NCBI GenBank assembly: GCA_902631395.1
Contig: CACOYM010000006.1
Span: 1-64,000 of the forward strand
DNA: 64,000 nucleotides
DNA from: Halieaceae bacterium
GTDB taxonomy: Bacteria; Pseudomonadota; Gammaproteobacteria; Pseudomonadales; Halieaceae
Direction: 5' to 3'
This document shows positions 3,541 through 64,000 of the stretch, piece after piece. Numbering within the stretch: position 1 is the stretch's first letter; every line of letters begins with the position of its first letter. Below the pieces are notes generated by a model that saw nothing but the letters and a program-made list of their open reading frames with translations, had not been told where the DNA came from and did no database searches. The position numbers were made by a program, and so were the translations under genes.

Positions 3541-3783
3541 ATGTCTTTTGATCAAGCGAATGCATTTAGAGATTATGTATCTCAAAACGAGGACGTACAG
3601 AAGGAAATCCGTTCAGCCTTTATGACTGAAAGCGCCAAGGTTAGTGAGATAGCCGCTGAGCACGGGTTTACGTTTACCTCTAAAGAGGGTGAGCAAGCGT
3701 GGGAGTCTGCTCAGGACAATGGACTAAGCGACTTTGAATTGGATATGGTGGGTGGTGGTCGCAGTAGCCTAAAATCCTGCTAA
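3541..3783 (+). CDS. Nif11-type leader peptide / RiPP precursor
   Basis: 80 residues. Residues 1-60 match the Nif11-like leader family (N-terminal FRDYVSQNEDVQKEI, then helix, GFTFTSKEG and a Trp), and the end is ELDMVGGG, a classic double-glycine cleavage site. After it only RSSLKSC remains: three Ser and a C-terminal Cys. Leaders of this family guide precursor peptides to modifying enzymes (lanthipeptide, sactipeptide and others). Ser plus Cys would allow a single thioether ring, but no LanM, radical-SAM or peptidase-transporter gene is visible within this window. A strong AGGGAGA ribosome site precedes the ATG. The next gene starts with a near copy of this leader, 21 bases downstream. Confidence 0.85.
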   Translation: MSFDQANAFRDYVSQNEDVQKEIRSAFMTESAKVSEIAAEHGFTFTSKEGEQAWESAQDNGLSDFELDMVGGGRSSLKSC

Positions 3784-3804: not shown

Positions 3805-4668
3805 ATGTCGTTAGACCAAGCAAATGCCTTTAGAGATTACGTGTCTCAAAACGAAGATGTACAAAAAGAAATCCGTTCCGCACTAATTAAAGAGAGTGCA
3901 AAGGTGAGTGAGATCGCAGCAAAGCACGGCTTCTCGTTTACTTCAGAAGAGGGCCAACAAGCTTGGGACGCCATGCAATCGGAAGTAAAAAATCTGGAAA
4001 CGGAAATGGCAGCGGGGCACGGTAATAACAACAGTGATTCGGCGGATGGCAAGCGTTATTTTTCAGAGCGAGGTCCCTTTTCAATCCAAGCCAACCATCA
4101 AATGAAGCCCACTATTCCCGTAGGAACTTTTGAAGGCAAAAAGCACGTCGCCGAAAACTGGGACATATCCAGGCTTATGGATGATTGTGACAACAAGGAA
4201 AAGATTTGCGAAATGTTGGGTGAAATGCTGGAACTCGCAGCCTCTGGTTCATCTGAACATCGGTTGCAAATGCAAGAGGGAGAGAATGGCATGCGTTTGG
4301 CACATGTCTGGTTCGGACCCAACTTTCACCTTTTTCGTCATAGTCATCCCTTAGGGGATTGCACTTATTACGTCGCTGCTGGCGAACTTACAATGGGCAA
4401 ACGAAGACTAAAGGCAGGGTCTACTATTTTTGTGCCGAATGAAATGCCCTACAAATTTGTAGCGGGACCGGACGGTGTTGAGGTGCTGGAGTTCAGGTCT
4501 GGGGGCTCTATACCCGGGAAGCCAAAAATGAAAATCGAAGAGACTTCGCTTGCCTCGATTCAAAAGATCATTAATGACTATAAGGCCAACCAGCACCTCT
4601 GGAAAATGCCGCCCAACTTCAGCGACACAGGTCACGTGAAGCCCCATGAGGGAAGCAAACATCCTTGA
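3805..4668 (+). CDS. Nif11 leader domain fused to a cupin domain
   Basis: 287 residues. Residues 1-58 are 47/58 identical to the preceding Nif11 leader (25 of the first 26), but the double-glycine site is degenerate (ETEMAAGHG) and is followed by an Asn/Ser/Asp linker. Residues ~90-240 form a cupin: FRHSHPLGDCTYYVAAGEL supplies an HxH pair, and KAGSTIFVPNEMPY resembles the second cupin motif but lacks its usual His. A ~45-residue basic tail follows. A GGGAGAG ribosome site precedes the ATG. The gene probably arose by tandem duplication of the leader. The cupin might be a tailoring enzyme or binding protein that carries its own recognition leader; this is inference. Confidence 0.85.
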   Translation: MSLDQANAFRDYVSQNEDVQKEIRSALIKESAKVSEIAAKHGFSFTSEEGQQAWDAMQSEVKNLETEMAAGHGNNNSDSADGKRYFSERGPFSIQANHQMKPTIPVGTFEGKKHVAENWDISRLMDDCDNKEKICEMLGEMLELAASGSSEHRLQMQEGENGMRLAHVWFGPNFHLFRHSHPLGDCTYYVAAGELTMGKRRLKAGSTIFVPNEMPYKFVAGPDGVEVLEFRSGGSIPGKPKMKIEETSLASIQKIINDYKANQHLWKMPPNFSDTGHVKPHEGSKHP

Positions 4669-19632: not shown

Positions 19633-21045
19633 TTACGCGGCCGGTAAGTCAAGATCCTTCAGCTTTCGGGTGAGGGTGTTTCTGCCCCAACCTAATAATT
19701 CGGCTGCCTCAGCTTTCCGGCCCCCGGTATGCCGCAGCGCAGCTTGAATCATGATCGATTCAAAGAGCGGCAGCGCCTGGCGGAGCACATTAGATTTTCC
19801 GTCGGAGAGCTGACGGTTCGCCCAGCCTGCAAGCTGCTCGTGCCACGTTTCTGATTGACTGACGGCATCAAACTTTTTTTGTTGTGAAAGCTCTGGCGGC
19901 AGATCAGACAATACGATCTCGCGCCCCGCCGCCATAACTGTCAGCCATCGACAGGTATTCTCGAGTTGTCTGACATTGCCTGGCCAGGGTAAATGCGTGA
20001 GCAAGCTCAGTGCGTCCGCAGATAACACTTTGGTCTCGACTCTCAACTCCCTGCCTGCAGCGGCGAGAAAATGGTTGAGTAACTGTGGGATGTCTTCTCG
20101 GCGCTCAGACAATTTTGGCACGTGAATGCGGATGACGTTGAGTCTGTGGAACAGATCCTCACGAAATGCACCCGATTCGACTAGCGACTCCAGCTTCTGG
20201 TGAGTCGCGGCAATGATGCGCACATCAGTCTTGATTGAATCGATGCCACCGACCCGAAAAAATTCCCCGTCCTGCAGCACACGAAGTAGCCGTGTTTGTG
20301 CGGCTGCCGGCATGTCGCCGATTTCATCGAGGAATAGCGTGCCGCCACGTGCCTGCTCGAATCGACCCTCACGGCGATTATTGGCCCCCGTAAAGGCACC
20401 TTTTTCGTGGCCGAACAATTCTGATTCCATCAGTTCTTGAGGGATGGCAGCCATATTCAGTGCGACGAAAACGCTGTCTGCCCGGGGACTGTGGCGGTGC
20501 AGTGCGCGAGCGACCAGTTCTTTACCAGTGCCCGATTCGCCATTGATCAAGACAGTGATGTGGCTCTGCGCAAGACGGCCGATCGCTCGAAAAACCTCTT
20601 GCATGGCAGGCGCGTTTCCAATGATTTCGGTCGTTCGCTGGCCGCCTGCATCCTCTGCACCATCCGCATTCTGTGCCTGCTGGGATTGGGCCCGTGTCAC
20701 GGTCGCAACCATTTCGTCGATGTCGAAGGGTTTGGGCAGATATTCGAAGGCGCCCTCTTCATAGGCGTTGACTGCGCTGTCGAGGTCGGAGTGCGCGGTC
20801 GTGATAATGACAGGGAGCTCGGGTTGTCGCGCTTTGATCTGAGACAGCAAGGTAATACCGTCCATGCCGGGCATTCGGATATCGCTTACCACCACCATGG
20901 GCGTATCGCTATCCAGCGCGTCGACAACGGCGTCACCTGAATCGAAAGCACGACAGCTCAGACCGGCGCGCGTGAGTGCTTTCTCCATCACCCAGCGAAT
21001 CGAGCTATCGTCATCAACGATCCAGATTTGTCCTTCTGCTGGCAT
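19633..21045 (-). CDS. ntrC: Nitrogen regulator NtrC (sigma-54 activator)
   Basis: 470 residues. Receiver domain with phospho-Asp in VVVSDIRMPGMDG, a Gln/Ala linker, AAA+ domain with GESGTGKE Walker A, the sigma-54 contact loop GAFTGA and LFLDEIGDMP Walker B, and a Fis-type helix-turn-helix at the end (HTGGRKAEAAELLGWGRNT). It binds enhancer sites and drives sigma-54 promoters when nitrogen is short. It follows ntrB by one base. Two likely targets, with NtrC-type sites, lie ~2 kb away beside GSII. Confidence 0.97.
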   Translation of the reverse strand: MPAEGQIWIVDDDSSIRWVMEKALTRAGLSCRAFDSGDAVVDALDSDTPMVVVSDIRMPGMDGITLLSQIKARQPELPVIITTAHSDLDSAVNAYEEGAFEYLPKPFDIDEMVATVTRAQSQQAQNADGAEDAGGQRTTEIIGNAPAMQEVFRAIGRLAQSHITVLINGESGTGKELVARALHRHSPRADSVFVALNMAAIPQELMESELFGHEKGAFTGANNRREGRFEQARGGTLFLDEIGDMPAAAQTRLLRVLQDGEFFRVGGIDSIKTDVRIIAATHQKLESLVESGAFREDLFHRLNVIRIHVPKLSERREDIPQLLNHFLAAAGRELRVETKVLSADALSLLTHLPWPGNVRQLENTCRWLTVMAAGREIVLSDLPPELSQQKKFDAVSQSETWHEQLAGWANRQLSDGKSNVLRQALPLFESIMIQAALRHTGGRKAEAAELLGWGRNTLTRKLKDLDLPAA

Positions 21046-21046
21046 C

Positions 21047-22114
21047 TCAAATCTCCATCGGTAAGAGCATTGTGAAGCAGGTCTCTCCCGGTACGCTTTG
21101 CACCTGAATCAAACCGCCATGCTGATTAGCAATACGCTGTGCAATAGACAAACCCAGACCCGTACCTTGGGCATTACCCGTGACCATGGGTAGGAAAAGC
21201 CTTGGCAGCAGGTCTTCTGGAACGCCGGGTCCGTCGTCACTGACCTGCAGCGCACAGACCAGCTTGTGTCGGTTGCCGCCTAATGTGAATTGTCGAAGAA
21301 CACGCGTCTTCAGCGTGATCAGACCACCATCGCCGCAGGCTTGCCATGCATTGCGAACAAGGTTGAGTACGGCCTGTGTGAGCTGTCCGCCGTCTGCTAT
21401 AAAATCAGGCAAGCTCGGATCATAGTCACGCTCGATGCTGAGCTGGCCCTTTGCTTCTGCCTCTATAAGGTGCCGGACATGCTCGGTAACCTCATGGATA
21501 TTCGTAGCATCTGACTCCAGTTGCTCTCTAGGACCCAGCATCCGGTCGACCAAGGTTCTGAGTCGGTCGACCTCCGATATTATGATGTCCGTGTATTCAT
21601 GCAGGGTCACTTCCGCTAACTCACTGGCGAGCAATTGCGCGGCGCCGCGTATTCCGCCCAGCGGGTTTTTTACCTCATGAGCAACCCCTTTCATGATTTC
21701 CTTCAGGGTCGCTTGTGCCTGCCACTCGCTCTCGTCTCGGCTAATGGCTTGTAGACGATCAACCATATTGAGCTCCACTAGTAAGCAGCGTTGATCAGCG
21801 CTTGAGCTAAAAGGACTTAAGGTGATGTCGACTGTGCGTTCTTGACCTGTACGCGTGGCGAGTGGTATCGCGCGCCTCACCATCGGATAATTTTCTGACA
21901 AAGCCTGATGCAGGAGCGAATACCACTCATTTGACTCATCGAGGAGCTTCTCTAAAGCGATCCCCACGGCGCGACTCGCAGAGATTTCCAGCAGATTTTC
22001 TGCGGAGTGGTTGAGCGCTCTAATGTGTAGGTTTGCGTCCAGGAGCACAACGGCCGTAGCCAATAGATCGAGATGGCAGTCGGCAGTGAGATCGATCAAG
22101 GGCTCGGCTGGCAT
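21047..22114 (-). CDS. ntrB: Nitrogen sensor kinase NtrB
   Basis: About 355 residues from ATG 22114 (MPAEPLIDL...); the open frame continues upstream into glnA-remnant sequence, so the longer starts are doubtful. A PAS domain (~residues 15-120) is followed by the H box GVAHEVKNPLGGIRGAAQ, N box NLVRNAWQAC and G boxes DDGPGVPEDL and GTGLGLSIAQRI. It phosphorylates NtrC under nitrogen limitation and answers to PII. The gene follows the glnA fragment just as glnL follows glnA in the canonical operon. Confidence 0.95.
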   Translation of the reverse strand: MPAEPLIDLTADCHLDLLATAVVLLDANLHIRALNHSAENLLEISASRAVGIALEKLLDESNEWYSLLHQALSENYPMVRRAIPLATRTGQERTVDITLSPFSSSADQRCLLVELNMVDRLQAISRDESEWQAQATLKEIMKGVAHEVKNPLGGIRGAAQLLASELAEVTLHEYTDIIISEVDRLRTLVDRMLGPREQLESDATNIHEVTEHVRHLIEAEAKGQLSIERDYDPSLPDFIADGGQLTQAVLNLVRNAWQACGDGGLITLKTRVLRQFTLGGNRHKLVCALQVSDDGPGVPEDLLPRLFLPMVTGNAQGTGLGLSIAQRIANQHGGLIQVQSVPGETCFTMLLPMEI

Positions 22115-22199
22115 CGGCTTAGTCCCGCACGCTAGGGCGCGGAGCATGGAAAGGCTGCTCATGCGACGCGTCTTGTTGGGTGCTGTCAGCATCAAGCCC

Positions 22200-22746
22200 C
22201 AGCACCTGCCGTCGATCTCCGCCCTTAAAGACATTGTTCAGTGGCCAGCTCGCGGCCTGCTTCGGTGCGCCAAACGGCGCTTCATTGAGCGCCAAGAAGC
22301 GGCTCTTCCCTGTTTCGAATATTAGGCGCACCAGAATGGTGCGGAACAAACAGAGAACTCAGGTCCCGGGCCAAGGAATGCAGTATCACCGAGGCCTGTT
22401 GAGGTCGTGTAAGTCTCAGTTTTTTTGGCGATGTTGCGTGGGTCGCAATCGCAACCCCGCATAGTGGCGGGCTCGACGATGTTACATTTGACGATGACGG
22501 TTGGATCGTCGGTGACAGGATCCAGAATGGCGGTGCTGTCGTTTGGCATCAAAATCATGTCGGATTCGTTGACGCCCTTCCATCCAGAGACGGATAACAC
22601 GACGAACGTTTTGCCCCAGCGAAAAAGCCCTTGTCCACAGTGCTAAATTGAAGCAAGCGCTGTTCCTTGCCCTTTATGCCTGTGAATCGCAGATCCACCC
22701 AGAGGACGTCGTCGCTGTTCAATAGATTAATCTCTCGGACTGACAT
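22200..22746 (-). pseudogene. glnA: Decayed class I glutamine synthetase (glnA) N-terminal fragment
   Basis: Starting at ATG 22746, the frame reads MSVREINLLNSDDVLWVDLR then FTGIKGKEQRL, a clear GlnA N-terminus. Near 22615 the frame shifts, and the homology continues in another frame as SGWKGVNESDMILMPNDSTAI, PTVIVKCNIVEPATM and DPRNIAKK, up to LGPGPEF. There the metal-ligand Glu of the usual GPEPEF is already Gly. That frame stops at 22322. A further weak match (SRFLALNEA...NNVFKGG) lies in a third frame. The catalytic C-terminal half is missing; the fragment runs into ntrB. So roughly 190 of ~470 codons survive, with at least two frame breaks and lost active-site residues. The left boundary is approximate. 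Confidence 0.9.
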
Positions 22747-22818
22747 GTGTTGTTCCTCTCAAAAAATGAGGCCCTCTCGCATCGAAGCGGATTTATAATT
22801 GCGAGGTCCGCCTCAACC

Positions 22819-22835
22819 TGCAAGGGATGTGCCAA
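22819..22835 (-). promoter_or_regulatory. Sigma-54 promoter, leftward (old glnA promoter, now upstream of ntrBC)
   Basis: The minus strand reads TTGGCAC-N5-TTGCA, a full match to the -24/-12 consensus with GG and GC ten bases apart. It lies ~73 bases before the start of the glnA remnant. It would now transcribe the remnant as a leader to ntrB-ntrC. Confidence 0.8.
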
Positions 22836-22920
22836 ACTATCTAATGCCTGCTAAAACGGGGCAAGACCAAGGCATTGATCTGGCGATAGTTGTGCAAAAG
22901 GCCATCCTCGCCATGCAAAC

Positions 22921-22937
22921 TGCCACTTATTGGTGCA
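22921..22937. promoter_or_regulatory. NtrC-type enhancer site 1
   Basis: TGCCACTTATTGGTGCA: a GCAC-N7-GTGC-like dyad with one swapped pair of bases in the left half. It lies ~31 bp (three helical turns) from site 2, the same kind of spacing as the E. coli glnA enhancers, and between two divergent sigma-54 promoters. Confidence 0.6.
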
Positions 22938-22952
22938 AAATACAACTTATAC

Positions 22953-22967
22953 GCACTTATTTGGTGC
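22953..22967. promoter_or_regulatory. NtrC-type enhancer site 2
   Basis: GCACTTATTTGGTGC is a perfect GCAC-N7-GTGC dyad, matching the E. coli glnA NtrC sites in form. Located ~64-78 bases upstream of the rightward -24 element. Confidence 0.75.
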
Positions 22968-23030
22968 TTTAAAGTGCCGTGTCGACAGTGAGCCCCATAA
23001 AAATCAGCTATTTACAGATATAAGAAGAGG

Positions 23031-23046
23031 TGGCATAGATTTTGCG
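23031..23046 (+). promoter_or_regulatory. Sigma-54 promoter of the GSII gene
   Basis: TGGCAT-N5-TTGCG with GG and GC ten bases apart; one deviation from TGGCAC. Predicted start near 23057, leaving a ~105-base leader before the GSII ATG. The AGATT spacer also resembles that of E. coli glnAp2. Confidence 0.75.
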
Positions 23047-23162
23047 ATGTATCCGAGAAGGTGTTTTGGTCCTGAGCACTGCATGCGGCTGACACATCGA
23101 TGTATGAACCATTTTGAGCAAACTGTGTGCCTTTAATCGCACCGTGCGGAGACCTAGAAGCA

Positions 23163-24173
23163 ATGAAATCAAAACTTGAATACATTTGGTTGGATGGTTA
23201 CAAGCCCACCCAAAGCCTGAGAAGCAAAACCCAAGTTCGCGATAACTTTGGCGGTACACTAGAGGAGTGCCCCATGTGGTCATTTGATGGCAGCTCAACA
23301 GAGCAAGCCGATGGCAGTGCCTCAGATTGCCTGCTCCAACCGGTAGCGATTTTCCCGGACCCTGGCCGCAAAGATGCTTTTTTGGTGATGACAGAAGTAC
23401 TGAATGCTGACGGGTCGCCTCATGTGTCCAACGGTCGCGCTACTATTGACGATGATGACGACGACTTCTGGTTTGGTTTTGAACAAGAGTACTTCTTATG
23501 GGACATTGACACTAAGTTGCCACCCGGTTTCCCTGTAAATGGCTACCCAGGCCCGCAAGGGCCCTACTACTGCTCTGTCGGAGCGGGAAACGCTTTTGGC
23601 CGGGAGTGCGTGGAAGAGCACTTCGATCTGTGTCTGGCAGCGGGTATTAACGTTGAAGGTATCAATGCGGAGGTTGCTGCAGGCCAGTGGGAGTTTCAGG
23701 TGTTTGCTAAAGGCGCCAAGCGTGCGGGCGATGAAACCTGGGTGGCCCGGTACTTATTGGAACGTGTTGGGGAGAAGTACGGCTTATCGATTAATTGGCA
23801 CCCCAAGCCCTTCGGGAGCCTGGATTGGAATGGTTCGGGCATGCATGCCAACTTCTCAAACGAAGTAATGCGGACTGCAGGCGAGGAAGCGGTGTTTACG
23901 AAAATCTGTGAAGAGTTTGGAAAGAACATTGAGCGTCACATCAGTGTTTACGGCGCAGACAATGATCAGCGACTAACCGGCGACCACGAGACGCAGTCGA
24001 TTGATACCTTTAGCTATGGTATCTCTGATCGAGGCGCCTCTATCCGGATTCCGGTATCCACACACACAGATGGTTGGGTCGGTCGACTCGAGGACAGACG
24101 AACAGCGTCGAACGCCGATCCTTACAAGGTCGCTGCGGCGATTGTGAAAACAACTAAGGAAGCGCTCGCGTAG
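23163..24173 (+). CDS. glnII: Glutamine synthetase type II (eukaryotic-type)
   Basis: 336 residues, far shorter than GSI (~470) and matching GSII. The N-terminus KSKLEYIWLDGYKPTQSLRSK, the FDGSSTEQADGSASDC motif, GFEQEYFLWD, GPYYCSVGAGNAFGR and NGSGMHANFSNE motifs carry the ATP, glutamate and metal ligands; the flexible-loop Glu is in the DHETQSIDTFSYGISDRGASIRIP region. It makes glutamine from glutamate, ammonia and ATP. The start is ATG 23163; an upstream in-frame start at 23127 would extend into the leader. Sigma-54/NtrC control is visible upstream. As the nearby GSI is broken, this is probably a main ammonia-assimilating enzyme. Confidence 0.95.
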   Translation: MKSKLEYIWLDGYKPTQSLRSKTQVRDNFGGTLEECPMWSFDGSSTEQADGSASDCLLQPVAIFPDPGRKDAFLVMTEVLNADGSPHVSNGRATIDDDDDDFWFGFEQEYFLWDIDTKLPPGFPVNGYPGPQGPYYCSVGAGNAFGRECVEEHFDLCLAAGINVEGINAEVAAGQWEFQVFAKGAKRAGDETWVARYLLERVGEKYGLSINWHPKPFGSLDWNGSGMHANFSNEVMRTAGEEAVFTKICEEFGKNIERHISVYGADNDQRLTGDHETQSIDTFSYGISDRGASIRIPVSTHTDGWVGRLEDRRTASNADPYKVAAAIVKTTKEALA

Positions 24174-24434: not shown

Positions 24435-26249
24435 ATGAAATCCCTTCGCAATATCGCCATCATTGCCCACGTTGACCACGGAAAAACCACATTGGTTGAT
24501 TGCTTGCTGCAGCAATCCGGCACTCTGGACAGGAAAAACGTGGGCGCAGAGCGGATCATGGATTCGAGTGATCAAGAGCGCGAGCGCGGGATTACTATTC
24601 TCGCTAAGAACACTGCCATCAAGTGGAGCGATTACCGCATCAATATCGTCGATACCCCTGGTCACGCTGACTTTGGGGGTGAGGTTGAGCGCGTTCTGTC
24701 TATGGTCGATTCCGTGTTGCTGTTGGTTGACGCTGTTGATGGACCGATGCCGCAAACCCGCTTCGTCACCGCCAAGGCCTTTGAGCGCGGACTCAACCCG
24801 ATTCTGGTGGTCAACAAGATCGACCGACCCGGCGCCCGTCCGGACTGGGTGATTGATCAGGTGTTTGATCTTTTCGATACCTTGGGCGCGACAGAGAAGC
24901 AGTTGGATTTCCCCGTTATTTACGCTTCGGCCATCAATGGGATCGCGGGCGAAGACTACGATGCGATGGCGGACGATATGTCGCCGCTGTTCCACGCGAT
25001 CGTAAACAAAGTAGCTCCGCCCGAGGTCAATGCTAAAGGGCCACTTCAGCTTCAGATATCTGCGCTCGACTACAGCAGCTATTTGGGCGTGATTGGCGTC
25101 GGTCGGATCACGCGAGGGAGACTCACGCCCAACACACCGGTTGCGGTTGTCGATCGCGAGGGCAACCAGCGTAATGGCAAAGTGCTGCAAGTCATGGGTT
25201 ACCTTGGTCTCGACCGCGTTGACGAGCAGCGCGCCGAAGCGGGTGATATTGTCTGTGTGACAGGCATCGACGCACTGAATATCTCAGACACACTTTGCGA
25301 TCCGGCCACGCCTGAATCGCTGCCCGCGCTAACCGTCGATGAACCGACCGTCAGTATGACATTTCAGGTGAACGATTCTCCGTTTGCGGGCCGTGAAGGT
25401 AAGTACGTGACGTCCCGCAACATTAAGGAGCGTCTTGAAAGAGAACTTATTCACAACGTGGCATTGCGGGTTGAGCAGGGCGACGCCCCTGATAAGTTCA
25501 AGGTATCTGGCCGTGGCGAGCTCCATCTATCGGTATTAATTGAAAACATGCGACGGGAAGGTTACGAGCTGGGCGTTTCGCGGCCCGAGGTGGTTCAGAA
25601 AGAAATCGATGGCGAGCTCTGCGAGCCTTATGAGAGCCTAGTCATCGACTGCGAAGAAGCGCACCAGGGCGGCGTCATAGAAGAGCTCGGCTTGCGTCGT
25701 GCTGAGCTTCAGAACCTGGTGACAGACGGGATGGGTCGCATTCGGTTGGAGTTTATTGTGCCTGCACGAGGGCTGATCGGCTTTCGCTCACACTTTCTCA
25801 CACTGACTTCCGGTTCTGGCATCATGACCCATACATTCGATCACTACGGCCCCGTAGCTAAATCCCAGCTCGGTGCCCGCAATAATGGGGTGCTGGTGTC
25901 CATGGCTTTGGGCAAGACACTTGCTTACGCGCTGTTTGGCTTACAGGAGCGTGGTCGGCTATTTATCGAGCCCAATGCAGAAGTTTATGAGGGCCAGGTC
26001 ATCGGGCTTCACAGTCGGGGCAATGATCTGGTGGTCAACCCAACCAAGGCGAAGCAGCTGACCAACGTGCGTGCCTCAGGTAGTGACGAGGCAGTAATCT
26101 TGACACCTCCGGTGCTCCACAGTCTGGAGCAGGCGCTCGAGTTTATTGACGAAGACGAGCTAGTGGAAGTGACACCTGACAGCATCCGCCTGCGCAAAAA
26201 ATTGCTCTTGGAGCACGAGCGCAAGCGTGCGTCGAGAAATGCAGCCTAA
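24435..26249 (+). CDS. bipA: Ribosome-associated GTPase BipA/TypA
   Basis: 604 residues. An EF-G-like translational GTPase used in ribosome assembly and stress growth. G motifs: [35 protein letters not shown]; then domain II, EF-G domain III/V and the BipA-specific C-terminal domain. ATG at 24435. Its position near ntrBC and the glutamine synthetase slot matches pseudomonads. Confidence 0.97.
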
Positions 26250-60351: not shown

Positions 60352-62121
60352 CTAATAAACGTCTCGTAGGTATCGCTTTCGGAGTTTTAATTCTCTGAGG
60401 TATTCACCGGCCGAATCTAAGCCGTTTCCGGACTCATTTGAGATGACCTGCAACAGTGCATTCTCTACATCAGGCGCCATGCGTTCAGCATCGCCGCAGA
60501 CATAAAAATAAGCGCCCTCCTCTAGCCACTGATATAGAGACTTACTGTTCTCGACCATCCGATCTTGGACGTAGACTTTCTCTTGCTGATCTCTAGAAAA
60601 TGCGAGATCTAATCGATCTAACAAGCCTTTCTCCAACCAGTCTGTGATCTCTTCCTCATATAGGAAATCACAATCCCTATGTTGATCCCCGAAGAAGAGC
60701 CAATTTTTACCTTTGGCGCCGGTTGCTCCACGCTCTTGGAGAAAAGCCCGAAAGGGGGCGATTCCAGTGCCAGGGCCCACCATTATGATTGGTACATCAT
60801 CGTCATCAGGGAGTCTAAAATTATTGTTTTGTGTAAAGAAAATTGGATTTGGATGACCGATATTGACTCCGTCAGCAAGCCATGTAGAGGCGACTCCTCG
60901 GTGCTCGCGATTTGCTTGCATCCACCTGACGCCAGCGATGGTCATATGTACTTCATTCTCGTGTACTAGCTGGCTAGATGAAATTGAATAAGCTCGATGC
61001 TGCAAGGGTTTAAGAAGACCAACAAACTCGCTCACCTCTAGAGGGTAGTCAAGTTCTATGCTTAAAAGATCTAAACAGTCTTTACCCCATAGAAATTTAT
61101 CCTTTGCGACTTTGTTGTCGCTCCGATGGAGAGACTTCAATTCAGACCGCTTTGCCCGATTAGCTATCTCTGTTACGAGTTTCTTTGTAGGCGTAACTAT
61201 TTCAAATTGAGTTTTCAAGAGCGTGTTCAGAGTGCTATCAAAGCCCTCTACTTCTGCGTCAGGCGAGAATTCCAGCTTGGCAAGAATTGAGTCAACAAGA
61301 TCAGAGTGATTTTGTGGAACAATATTGAGTGCGTCACCTGGAGCATAAGTGAGGCCACTAGCCTCTAGGTTTAGAGAATAATGGCGGACCTCTTTTTTCG
61401 ACCCTTTTCTGGATAACAATCGGCTGTCCAGAAGTACTGATTGAAAGGGATTTCTTTTAGACCACTGATGGGTCTTCTTTTTTACTTCGGAGCGTTGTTC
61501 GCTAGTTGGGACACTGGCTAGCTCCAACCCAGAATCCGTCGGAGACTTGCTTTTAAAAATCGGAAGTAATTCTGAAATCCAACTGCCAGCCAGTTCTTCA
61601 TAATCTACGTCACAGTCCTGCCTTTCCGCTAATCTTAAGGCGCCCAGTTGCTCGAGCCTAGTGTCAAGTACCTTCGCAGCTTGGCAAAACTCGTCGTAGT
61701 CAGTATCTCCTAATCCCAAAACCCCAAAGTTTAAATTCTCTAGTCTCGGCGCGGTGGTTGCAGATAGCTCCTCCCAAAACAGCTCTGCGTTGTCAGGCAT
61801 TTCGCCCTCACCATGTGTGGACACAACAAAAATTGCATTTTCAACTTCTTGCAGTGTGCCCATAGAGGTTGAATTTAAGTCAGAGAGAACAGTCGTAAAC
61901 CCCAGGCTCTTTGCGGCCTCACAAGTTTCTTCTGCCACTAGCTCGGCATTTCCAGACTGAGAGCCAAATAACACGTGCAATGGCTTAGTGCTGGCGGCCT
62001 CTTCTTGAGTATCTTTGGCGTCTCCGGCCAGCTGAGTGCTTAAGCCCGCTAAAAAGCCTGTCAGCCAGGCTTGCTGCTGATCGCTGAAGGGAGCATCTGC
62101 GGGGAAGTCAGGAGCTTTCAT
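60352..62121 (-). CDS. CysJ-like NADPH diflavin reductase, partner of the GltB-like protein
   Basis: 589 residues, like CysJ (~599). A flavodoxin domain (~48-190; FGSQSGNAELVAEE, STHGEGEMPDNA, LGLGDTDYDEFC), an FAD domain (HRAYSISSS), NADPH-binding VGPGTGIAPFRAFLQER, and the terminal YLRDVY of reductases of this type. Sulfite reductase flavoprotein is the closest family, but no cysI lies beside it. The gene starts four bases after the GltB-like stop. So it likely feeds NADPH electrons to that protein in place of GltD. This pairing is inference. Base composition looks more AT-rich than in the neighbouring genes. Confidence 0.85.
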   Translation of the reverse strand: MKAPDFPADAPFSDQQQAWLTGFLAGLSTQLAGDAKDTQEEAASTKPLHVLFGSQSGNAELVAEETCEAAKSLGFTTVLSDLNSTSMGTLQEVENAIFVVSTHGEGEMPDNAELFWEELSATTAPRLENLNFGVLGLGDTDYDEFCQAAKVLDTRLEQLGALRLAERQDCDVDYEELAGSWISELLPIFKSKSPTDSGLELASVPTSEQRSEVKKKTHQWSKRNPFQSVLLDSRLLSRKGSKKEVRHYSLNLEASGLTYAPGDALNIVPQNHSDLVDSILAKLEFSPDAEVEGFDSTLNTLLKTQFEIVTPTKKLVTEIANRAKRSELKSLHRSDNKVAKDKFLWGKDCLDLLSIELDYPLEVSEFVGLLKPLQHRAYSISSSQLVHENEVHMTIAGVRWMQANREHRGVASTWLADGVNIGHPNPIFFTQNNNFRLPDDDDVPIIMVGPGTGIAPFRAFLQERGATGAKGKNWLFFGDQHRDCDFLYEEEITDWLEKGLLDRLDLAFSRDQQEKVYVQDRMVENSKSLYQWLEEGAYFYVCGDAERMAPDVENALLQVISNESGNGLDSAGEYLRELKLRKRYLRDVY

Positions 62122-62125
62122 GTGA

Positions 62126-64000
62126 TTAGGGTGCCCCTGAGGCCATTACTCTCTCAGGAACCACCTCACCAGCAAATAACTTTTCGAAGCAGGGCACCGC
62201 TCCAAGCCGCTCTGTATTCTTTGCATCCTGACAAAGGATCCAGCCGTAGGTGGGATAACTGTCTATGGATCTTACAGTCCTCCTAGTCAGGGCTTCTTTA
62301 AAATCGGACATACGTTTATAGGCAACTAAAGACGCAAGTTGCAAGTCATCATAGCCTGCTAAGGCTGCTTTAGCGTGTTTAGTGAGCCGCGTCTCTAGCT
62401 CAAAATCCTCTGTCATTATAAGATTTCGCGTAACCCGCTCCAACTCGGCTTTGTTTGCGGAAAGCTTTCGTTGCCTGGTGATCTGTTGAGCTAGGTCTAA
62501 TACCGTCCAACTGTTAACAAGCTGAAACATCTTTCTGCTATCGTTCTCTTCTCTACCCGGGGATACTCCGTCCAGAACATTCGAAGACTCCTTCCATGCT
62601 TTCTTGAGTCTGAGTATCTGTCCTCTAGCAAGGGCTTTAGACACTTCATCCACGAGCTCTTTGCGAGTTTTGACCGCGAGTATTTTATCGGCGTCTTGAT
62701 ACTGCAGCAGTGACTTGGGCATTATCCAGTAGAAATTCTTTGATTCTTTCTCCCAATTCTTTAGCAAGTGGTTCGCCAGTGATGATGAAGTTGCGTCGAC
62801 GTGCTGCTGCAAAAGCGTTTGCACAGTGATGCGGAAAACTTCACCCATAGTGTCTTCTTGAATCACGGGGCCAAAGAGAACTGAGTCATGACTTACGGAG
62901 TCGCTGAGTGCACCACTAGGGTCATACTGGAAAGCAAAGCCGCCGGACATACCATTACCAAAACCTTTGGAAAATTTCCCCAGATTGAGCACTGTGCCGT
63001 TGGTCATATATTCGCAGAAAAAGTCGCCCACTCCCTCCACTACAGCAGTCGCACCTGAGTTCCTCACCGCGAATCGGTCTCCCGCCTGACCCCTTACGAA
63101 AAGTCGACCGCCTGTAGCGCCGAACAAGGCAAAGTTGCCAATTAAAACATTTTCTTTGAGGTCCTCAGAGGCGTCTTCGTGCGACCATTGGATTACCATT
63201 TCTCCGCCGCAGGCACCTTTACCCACACCATCATTGCAGGTTCCAAAGTGTTGCAGCCGCATGCCATCGTTGCAAAAAACGCCGTAACTCTGTCCCGCAG
63301 ATCCGCATGTGCGTATTGAGAGAGTGTTTGGGGATAAAAATCTTCGACCACGGTCATCTTTCAGAGCGCTCGGAGTTGTTTTTCCGCTCCGATCATAATT
63401 TAGCCAGCGTTCTATATCGGTCGACAGCCGCCCACCAACGCTTTTATGCCGATTAGTTAAGTTAAAAATTTGACTGGTATAGGAAATTCCTCCGCTGGAG
63501 TTCAGGGTTTCCAGCGCTTCTCCAAAGAATTTTTCGTCTAAATCATAATTGCACTCTAAATAAGTAGGATCTGGCACCGCGGTCTCACTGATATTGACCA
63601 ACATTGCCCTCATATTAAGGTGGCCAACCGAGGAAGGGTGGTCCAACAGATGTAGCAAATCAGCTCGACCTCTAGCTTCATCAAGAGATTTGAAACCTAA
63701 ACGAGCTAATATTTCTCTGACCTCGTGCGAAATGTTTAAAAGATATTGAGCGAGAGCTCGGGCATCTCCGTCAAATGCTTCCTCGTTGGTAGTCAGTCCA
63801 GCTGGACACTTAATATTGCAATTTTTAGCCATAACGCACTTAAGCATCATTAAAGCAGTCGTCCCAAACTCAAATGAGTCGGCACCAAGCAAACTCGCCT
63901 TGACCACATCCGAACCGGTTTGCATTGCGCCGGAACAGCGCAGAGTAACTTTTTGCCTTATGCTATTAACGCAAAGGGCCTGGTGAACCTCAGCTATACC
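62126..64000 (-). CDS. Glutamate synthase large-subunit-like protein, C-terminal part (runs off the window)
   Basis: The frame is open to the right edge, so only the C-terminal ~624 residues are seen. GIAEVHQALCVN, GADSFEFGTTALMM and the cysteine set CVMAKNCNIKCPAGLTTN belong to the FMN/Fe-S domain of GltB; the GXGXG domain follows (IGNFALFGATGGRLFVRGQAG, GATAVVEGVGDFFCEYMTNG, GMSGGFAF). The third cysteine is spaced C-x5-C-x3-C rather than the usual C-x5-C-x4-C. The usual GltB would stop near NWEKESKNFYWIMPK, but here ~190 more residues follow, with no family I recognise. The N-terminal glutaminase domain, if any, lies outside. Its neighbour is a diflavin reductase instead of gltD. Confidence 0.85.
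   Translation of the reverse strand, partial: GIAEVHQALCVNSIRQKVTLRCSGAMQTGSDVVKASLLGADSFEFGTTALMMLKCVMAKNCNIKCPAGLTTNEEAFDGDARALAQYLLNISHEVREILARLGFKSLDEARGRADLLHLLDHPSSVGHLNMRAMLVNISETAVPDPTYLECNYDLDEKFFGEALETLNSSGGISYTSQIFNLTNRHKSVGGRLSTDIERWLNYDRSGKTTPSALKDDRGRRFLSPNTLSIRTCGSAGQSYGVFCNDGMRLQHFGTCNDGVGKGACGGEMVIQWSHEDASEDLKENVLIGNFALFGATGGRLFVRGQAGDRFAVRNSGATAVVEGVGDFFCEYMTNGTVLNLGKFSKGFGNGMSGGFAFQYDPSGALSDSVSHDSVLFGPVIQEDTMGEVFRITVQTLLQQHVDATSSSLANHLLKNWEKESKNFYWIMPKSLLQYQDADKILAVKTRKELVDEVSKALARGQILRLKKAWKESSNVLDGVSPGREENDSRKMFQLVNSWTVLDLAQQITRQRKLSANKAELERVTRNLIMTEDFELETRLTKHAKAALAGYDDLQLASLVAYKRMSDFKEALTRRTVRSIDSYPTYGWILCQDAKNTERLGAVPCFEKLFAGEVVPERVMASGAP

Follow-up and report, generated by a model that had tools for sequence, protein, structure and literature searches.

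A decayed glnA beside an intact type II glutamine synthetase gene in a Halieaceae genome: a probable part-way gene displacement

The locus described here comes from a Halieaceae genome, G000. The window is the stretch from base 1 to base 64,000 of its contig C6, which measures 124,832 bp. G000 is a metagenome-assembled genome (MAG) of 2.3 Mb in 60 contigs and is 88.8% complete. The canonical gammaproteobacterial gene order is glnA-ntrB-ntrC. In G000 the order is secB, ntrC, ntrB, a fragment of glnA (the gene for type I glutamine synthetase, GSI), a gene for a type II glutamine synthetase (GSII, a type resembling that of eukaryotes), typA and parC. A first-pass annotation of the window had proposed that the slot ahead of ntrBC holds only a frameshifted N-terminal GSI fragment, that an intact GSII of 336 residues lies divergently beside it, and that GSII has taken over from a fossil GSI. 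It had suggested aligning the fragment with GlnA, searching the genome for an intact glnA and comparing sister genomes. The features of the locus are as follows.

22350..22746 (lower end approximate), minus strand: glnA (GSI) pseudogene, approximately codons 1-134 of 467, from alignment with intact sister genes and GlnA model matches
23163-24170 (stop to 24173), plus strand: intact gene for GSII, a type II glutamine synthetase of 336 amino acids that matches solved GSII enzymes (best 314 bits, 3fky)
22820..22834, minus strand: TGGCACATCCCTTGC, the sigma-54-type site of the decayed glnA, about 88 bp ahead of the glnA start, consensus intact
23031..23045, plus strand: sigma-54-type site of GSII, TGGCATAGATTTTGC, about 132 bp ahead of the GSII start
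22931..22967: NtrC-type sites between both promoters, consisting of the palindrome GCACTTATTTGGTGC (22953-22967) and a half-site TGGTGC (22931-22936)
22328..22342, plus strand: NtrC-type palindrome GCACCAGAATGGTGC, 15 bases, aligned with a palindrome downstream of the relatives' glnA and retained at the deletion joint
22119..22326, minus strand: 3' remnant of a DUF4124-like gene with its 5' part deleted; in relatives this gene stands between glnA and ntrB
21047..22114, minus strand: ntrB, nitrogen sensor kinase, intact
19633..21045, minus strand: ntrC, sigma-54 activator, intact
24435..26249, plus strand: typA (bipA), flanking the glnA-ntrBC locus

The glnA fragment has its start codon at 22746 on the minus strand, and its 92-residue open frame matches the models NF007006 (5.2e-33) and TIGR00653 (4.9e-21). 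Its alignment contains two losses relative to intact sister genes, an in-frame loss of 3 bases near 22657 and a loss of 1 base near 22615 that produces a frameshift (-1). The fragment reads GPGPEF where relatives have GPEPEF, with Gly in place of the first Glu, a metal ligand. This much agrees with the first-pass annotation, but the loss is larger than the C-terminal half that it reported: homology ends at about codon 134 of 467, and about 70% of the gene is gone. Homology to GlnA is present in the glnA slot, while an intact frame with a complete catalytic domain is absent. Downstream lie the 3' end of the DUF4124-like gene, then ntrB and ntrC. Two deletions are recognized at the locus, one that took the remainder of glnA and a second that took the 5' part of the DUF4124-like gene. 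A figure of 53% identity for the fragment was dropped, as the underlying BLAST match crosses the frameshift and the joint into the DUF4124-like remnant. Because slot, strand and order are right and the model matches are strong, we consider the pattern at the locus to be more than chance.

Divergence was measured as the proportion of amino-acid-changing differences (pN); synonymous sites were saturated, and dN/dS was hence not usable. Over 77 in-frame codons of the fragment (residues 54-130 of 464 aligned), G000 is 73-78% identical to nine relatives; over the same codons the other eight relatives are 90-95% identical to G029. The corresponding pN values are 0.105-0.143 for the fragment against the nine relatives and 0.031-0.059 for the other eight against G029, an excess of about threefold. 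The GSII gene served as the comparison: pN is 0.025-0.033 for G000 against six relatives and 0.018-0.027 for five of those against G029. In the first 396 aligned bases of glnA, 39 first- or second-position bases of G000 are found in none of 19 relatives; the maximum of such private bases for any relative is nine, in the distant G017. By these sequence comparisons the fragment is a real pseudogene, since its amino-acid-changing differences are roughly threefold those found between relatives. Its loss looks recent on this scale, because the 77 codons contain no stop and the upstream sigma-54 consensus is intact.

The first-pass annotation had raised the possibility of an assembly artefact. In that case the break would have arisen in sequencing or assembly, or through the chimeric joining of two strains, and glnA would be intact at this place in the real genome. 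G000 is a MAG with no reads to hand, and a glnA frameshift that looks artefactual does occur in the genus, in G002; since G002 also has its ntrB and ntrC split, it was rejected as a second case of glnA decay. In G000, however, SecB, NtrC, NtrB, TypA and ParC are all full-length frames, and random errors would not yield an approximately threefold excess of amino-acid-changing differences together with two apparent deletions. In addition glnE, which encodes the enzyme that modifies GSI by adenylylation, is decayed on another contig (below). We regard an artefact as extremely improbable.

A second GlnA was looked for with the TIGR00653 model, and none was found above its cut-off (429 bits) in the 88.8%-complete assembly. 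The Pfam domain Gln-synt_C occurs in four places in G000, namely GSII and three GSI-superfamily proteins, on contigs C6, C8 and C4, which score 235, 180 and 162 bits with TIGR00653. Conceivably one of these three is the actual glutamine synthetase, with GSII serving some other function, as all three carry the catalytic domain above the Pfam cut-off. Against this, each falls some 194 bits or more short of the GlnA cut-off; among the matches listed, sister genomes with a true glnA also hold proteins in the 162-235-bit range; and two of the three genes adjoin genes that by eye resemble FAD-dependent oxidoreductases, neighbours to be expected of gamma-glutamyl-amine ligases. The three proteins are probably such ligases rather than GlnA, and the chance that one of them is the working synthetase seems slight in the extreme.

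The genus was represented by 57 genomes including G000; among its members are Luminiphilus sp. (L006) and Halieaceae MAG PL34863bin_51 (L005). The TIGR00653 search covered 36 of the 56 other genomes, and eleven of the remaining 20 were read, at their glnA loci only. Exactly one GlnA above cut-off was found in 33 of the 36 and two in none; G002 has its frameshifted copy. Neither GlnA above cut-off nor GSII was found in G014 and G026, which are 86% and 62% complete, so that these are probably gaps. Of the loci that were read, nine genomes have one full copy and G073 has one split over two contigs; G061 has two full copies, on contigs C41 and C11 (L125, L126), perhaps as a strain mixture. These counts bear on the possibility that an intact second glnA lies in the unassembled 11% or so of G000 and that GSI is still in use. 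The completeness of 88.8% and the two copies of G061 leave room for it, but a single GlnA is the usual state of the relatives, and GlnE, the would-be regulator of a hidden GSI, is a remnant in G000. We consider a hidden copy very improbable.

Nearly the entire GSII protein aligns with solved type II synthetases, at 278-314 bits for 16 distinct sequences (3fky, 4bax, 4is4 and 2d3a among them), versus at most 51 bits for other solved structures, which are GSI- or GSIII-type by length. Aligned with 3fky, it keeps the motifs EQEY, NAEV, QWEFQV, G.GxHAN, RLTG.HE, RG.SIRIP and EDRR.ASN. It scores 376 bits with NF041605, the NCBI equivalog model for GlnII, below the cut-off of 500 bits, and on these scores we class it among type II synthetases and not as a GlnII equivalog. 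The annotation of an intact, divergent GSII is thereby borne out.

Within the genus GSII is carried by nine of the 57 genomes including G000, and in the eight others it is 93-96% identical to that of G000. In seven it stands between glnA and typA (G000, G021, G023, G028, G029, G034 and G069), and in two, G001 and G018, it is found elsewhere. All of the seven except G000 retain an intact glnA, five of these genes being 91.6-94.6% identical to the sixth (G028). The seven slot copies form one clade of the GSII tree (SH-aLRT 95), with the G001 and G018 copies beside it. A second tree was built with FastTree from TypA, NtrB and NtrC, each gene being represented by up to 42 genomes, and was rooted at its midpoint. 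The seven genomes are interleaved there with sisters that lack GSII, so that later loss or local transfer must have occurred; GSII is patchy even among close sisters. G000 falls in a clade of 13 on this tree, with support of only 0.36. The case has the features of a non-orthologous displacement: an ancestral gene is lost and another family for the same reaction is present, the reaction being assigned by family membership and the loss resting on the 88.8%-complete MAG, and relatives show both the two-gene and the one-gene state.

The window contains two matches to a sigma-54-type pattern, with 0.56 expected; both lie in the 418 bp between glnA and GSII, one in each direction. An NtrC-type pattern also occurs twice, once in the 418-bp gap, with 0.31 expected, and two such matches are reached in 2 of 100 shuffles. 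The half-site TGGTGC at 22931-22936 and the TGGTGC within the palindrome GCACTTATTTGGTGC are 31 bp apart. Sigma-54-type sites for both genes were found in all seven genomes with GSII in the slot; two TGGTGC half-sites 31 bp apart occur in five of the seven and a strict NtrC palindrome in three. A predicted sigma-54 promoter with upstream NtrC sites, as expected of a member of the NtrC/sigma-54 regulon, is thus present by consensus matches only. From this arrangement GSII seems to have adopted the sites upstream of glnA, in which case NtrC would drive GSII. Decay of the glnA promoter was considered as well and rejected, the consensus at 22820-22834 being intact.

GSI is not the only component that is missing. 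The GlnE profile PF03710 finds matches in 48 of the 57 genomes of the genus and none in G000. In four relatives read there (G023, G015, G025 and G011), glnE lies between argA and ilvE. The argA-ilvE interval of G000 lies on a single contig (C13). Its roughly 760 bases contain two glnE pieces in colinear order, matching residues 824-907 (51.6 bits) and 926-970 (31.2 bits) of the G023 query; the best of 100 shuffles reaches 24.6 bits. The second piece was recovered with four of five GlnE queries, the fifth being truncated at that end. G021, G028 and G034, which have GSII and an intact glnA, share a clean glnE deletion that leaves argA and ilvE facing each other, and because the deletion is common to the three their losses may be one event. 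At face value GlnE is absent from 4 of the 7 genomes with GSII in the slot and from 5 of the 50 others (Fisher 0.009, kinship ignored). The absences in those five, G008, G014, G020, G065 and G072, were not used, as the flanks were on separate contigs, or one flank or nothing was found. G014, which is 86% complete, gave no GlnE match with PF03710 either. In a genome of the same order, G040 (99% complete), profile searches found no GlnA above cut-off, no GSII and no GlnE; a match near 146796 of its contig C20, within a 760-residue frame, may represent a synthetase of type III.

The roles of GlnE, GlnD, PII and NtrBC are those known from E. coli. GlnD matches were found in all 16 genomes searched including G000, 15 of them above cut-off and one, in G036, split over contigs. 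G000 has two PII genes, its NtrB and NtrC have their domains, and its GltB is an 1833-residue frame with four glutamate synthase Pfam regions. (The gltB gene, at 60352-64000 of the window and beyond, L196:853-8128, is directly followed by a gene for a flavodoxin-FAD-NAD reductase-like protein.) Since glnE is a remnant and GlnD, PII, NtrB and NtrC are intact, the gene content indicates that the covalent arm of nitrogen control is lost in G000 and the transcriptional arm kept.

The decay of glnA could instead be unrelated to GSII and reflect general genome reduction. Assemblies of the genus are small (1.3-3.6 Mb, incomplete ones included), and GSII is patchy among close sisters, which implies frequent gain and loss. 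Yet among the glnA loci read, the only loss beyond general frameshifts and contig ends is in a GSII carrier, and the three clean glnE deletions that were found are all in GSII carriers. We hold this explanation to be very unlikely, if somewhat less so than the others.

Within and outside the genus, 80 GSII loci were examined, the best 80 of at least 581 relatives. In 26 of these loci GSII immediately precedes ntrB in the same orientation and no glnA intervenes; 10 have a GSI-family gene within 2.5 kb, and 44 have neither arrangement. One further decayed glnA was found, in TMED1, another gammaproteobacterial MAG, between a divergent GSII and ntrB (L054:4871-5555, minus strand, NHBG02000020.1). 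It consists of three colinear pieces (45.4, 41.6 and 33.5 bits; 100 shuffles reach 22.3), is interrupted by stops and frame breaks, and is more decayed than the fossil of G000. The sister of TMED1 on the GSII tree is MED690 (L051), where the order is the same and both synthetase genes are intact.

GlnA and GlnE were counted in 50 GSII-bearing genomes outside the genus, drawn from the 80 loci, and the counts are valid for those 50 only. Four loci of the genus (L005, L006, L019 and L022) and 26 others were left out; among the 26, L046 and L065 have GlnA inside the locus (57% and 70% identical), and L062 and L070 have a GSI-family gene that is 32-33% identical. With E-value limits of 1e-60 for GlnA and 1e-10 for GlnE, which let short GlnA pieces at contig ends escape, GlnA was found in seven of the 50 (six above cut-off, and G081 split over contigs) and GlnE in six. 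Both were present in 5 genomes, neither in 42, GlnA only in 2 (G107 and G114) and GlnE only in 1 (G106), giving a Fisher value of 5.7e-5 for a link that is inflated by shared ancestry. The GlnA of G107 lies elsewhere in its genome, and its GSII locus (L038) is one of the 26 that adjoin ntrB. Several of the 43 GlnA-less genomes do encode GSI-like proteins that fall short of the cut-off, with a maximum of 290 bits (G124). On the GSII tree, parsimony gives nine changes each for the GlnA and GlnE traits. GSII relatives were also found on 43 viral contigs (L153-L195), at 49-73% identity, and on a 735-kb phage record, LR756501.1, at 60% identity; viruses or phage are a possible route of GSII spread.

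Taken together, the observations are best explained, with a probability that we put at roughly 85%, by a gene displacement that is part-way complete in the genus: GSII is displacing GSI, glnA and glnE have decayed in G000, and nitrogen control has shifted. An ancestor of this Luminiphilus-like bacterium would have acquired GSII between glnA and typA, facing away from glnA, and GSII would have shared the NtrC-type sites of glnA by way of its own sigma-54 promoter. Once GSII supplied glutamine under the control of NtrB and NtrC, the cell could have dispensed with GSI and with GlnE, its on/off enzyme. In G000 glnA would then have decayed to the truncated, frameshifted fragment and glnE to a short remnant, while GlnD, two PII proteins, NtrB, NtrC and GltB, the glutamate synthase large subunit, stayed intact. 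Nitrogen control, formerly exerted by NtrC together with the covalent adenylylation of GSI, would now be exerted by NtrC on GSII. GSII is presumably the working glutamine synthetase of G000. Of the earlier claims, the decay of GSI is confirmed by the pN excess, and the comparison with sisters, six of which keep a full glnA beside GSII, agrees with it; the takeover itself we infer from the intact, conserved GSII gene and its sigma-54/NtrC-type upstream region.

Several observations pull the other way. To the incompleteness of the MAG, in which a second glnA may be hidden, the doubled glnA of G061 and the shortfall of GSII against NF041605 must be added the promoter data: of 100 shuffled versions of the window, 10 reach two sigma-54-type matches, and the promoter of the dead glnA still fits the consensus. 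G023, G029 and G069 have GSII yet retain both glnA and glnE, and GSII therefore does not force their loss. PII (PF00543) gave no match in G011, G028 and G034, which may be gaps; the other 13 of 16 genomes have one to three. Among the 50 genomes outside the genus, whose completeness is not given, G106 has GlnE without GlnA, and G107 and G114 have GlnA without GlnE. Finally, the association of GlnA with GlnE is inflated by kinship as noted, and an independent-pairs test (59 rows) gave 3-4 of 7 pairs concordant and none discordant (p 0.125-0.25), the pairs being few.

Whether the change follows one course in other lineages is a wider question, and other bacteria seem to have made the same change from GSI to GSII. 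Genomes with both synthetases and no GlnE exist (G021, G028 and G034 firmly, and perhaps, at face value, G107 and G114), and GlnE without GlnA was seen in 1 of 50; for these reasons the order may be gain of GSII, loss of GlnE and then loss of GSI. We offer tentatively, at a little under even odds, the generalization that gammaproteobacteria, marine ones above all, repeatedly follow this ordered route. GSII would land beside glnA and join its NtrC sites, GlnE would be lost first, GSI would decay, and GSII would be left alone in the glnA-ntrBC slot. If so, adjacent GSI-GSII pairs in ocean metagenomes would be transitional states, and the abundance of bacterial GSII in the sea would reflect the departure of nitrogen control from covalent modification.

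Elsewhere in the window, at 3541-3783 and 3805-4668 on the plus strand, are genes for two neighbouring proteins with near-identical N-terminal Nif11 domains. The first protein has 80 residues and ends in a GGG stretch and a short Cys-bearing tail; to our eye it resembles the precursor of a ribosomally synthesized and post-translationally modified peptide. The second has the same leader on a protein of 287 residues.

In most cells ammonia enters metabolism by way of glutamine synthetase, and the circuit of GSI, GlnE and PII is a textbook case of enzyme control. In E. coli, glnA-ntrB-ntrC lies beside typA and has a sigma-54 promoter and paired NtrC sites about three helical turns apart, and GSI is adenylylated by GlnE. 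G000 is like E. coli in the order of the locus beside typA, the sigma-54-type promoter and the paired NtrC-type sites, and unlike it in that glnA and glnE are dead and a divergent GSII appears to use the shared upstream region. Another gammaproteobacterium that has lost glnA is Blochmannia vafer. This intracellular ant symbiont is reported to be unable to assimilate ammonia (PMC3017870); G000 is like it in the loss of glnA and unlike it in that a second synthetase would stand in.

No report of the displacement of glnA by GSII, or of glnE decay alongside it, was found in search listings of the open-licence literature. GSIIB of gammaproteobacteria is known and the phylogeny of GSII has been traced (Ghoshroy et al. 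2010, PMC2978018); GSIIB is the same type of enzyme in the same bacterial class, and the available portion of that study does not treat loss of GSI or GlnE. The Global Ocean Sampling survey found the number of type II synthetases 'surprisingly high' for reasons that were unclear, recorded 19 adjacent GSI-GSII pairs whose meaning was left open, and cited such a pair in Frankia alni CpI1 (PMC1821046). The G000 locus resembles these pairs in the adjacency of the GSI and GSII genes. In the survey pairs, however, both genes seem functional by their active-site residues (PMC1821046), whereas glnA and glnE of G000 are pseudogenes and the G000 pair faces outward from sigma-54/NtrC-type sites. The G000 locus offers a testable answer to what such pairs mean: they can mark steps in the replacement of one synthetase by the other, with covalent control given up and transcriptional control retained, and the genus provides a natural series, with genomes that have both synthetase genes and glnE, genomes that have both without glnE, and one with neither glnA nor glnE.

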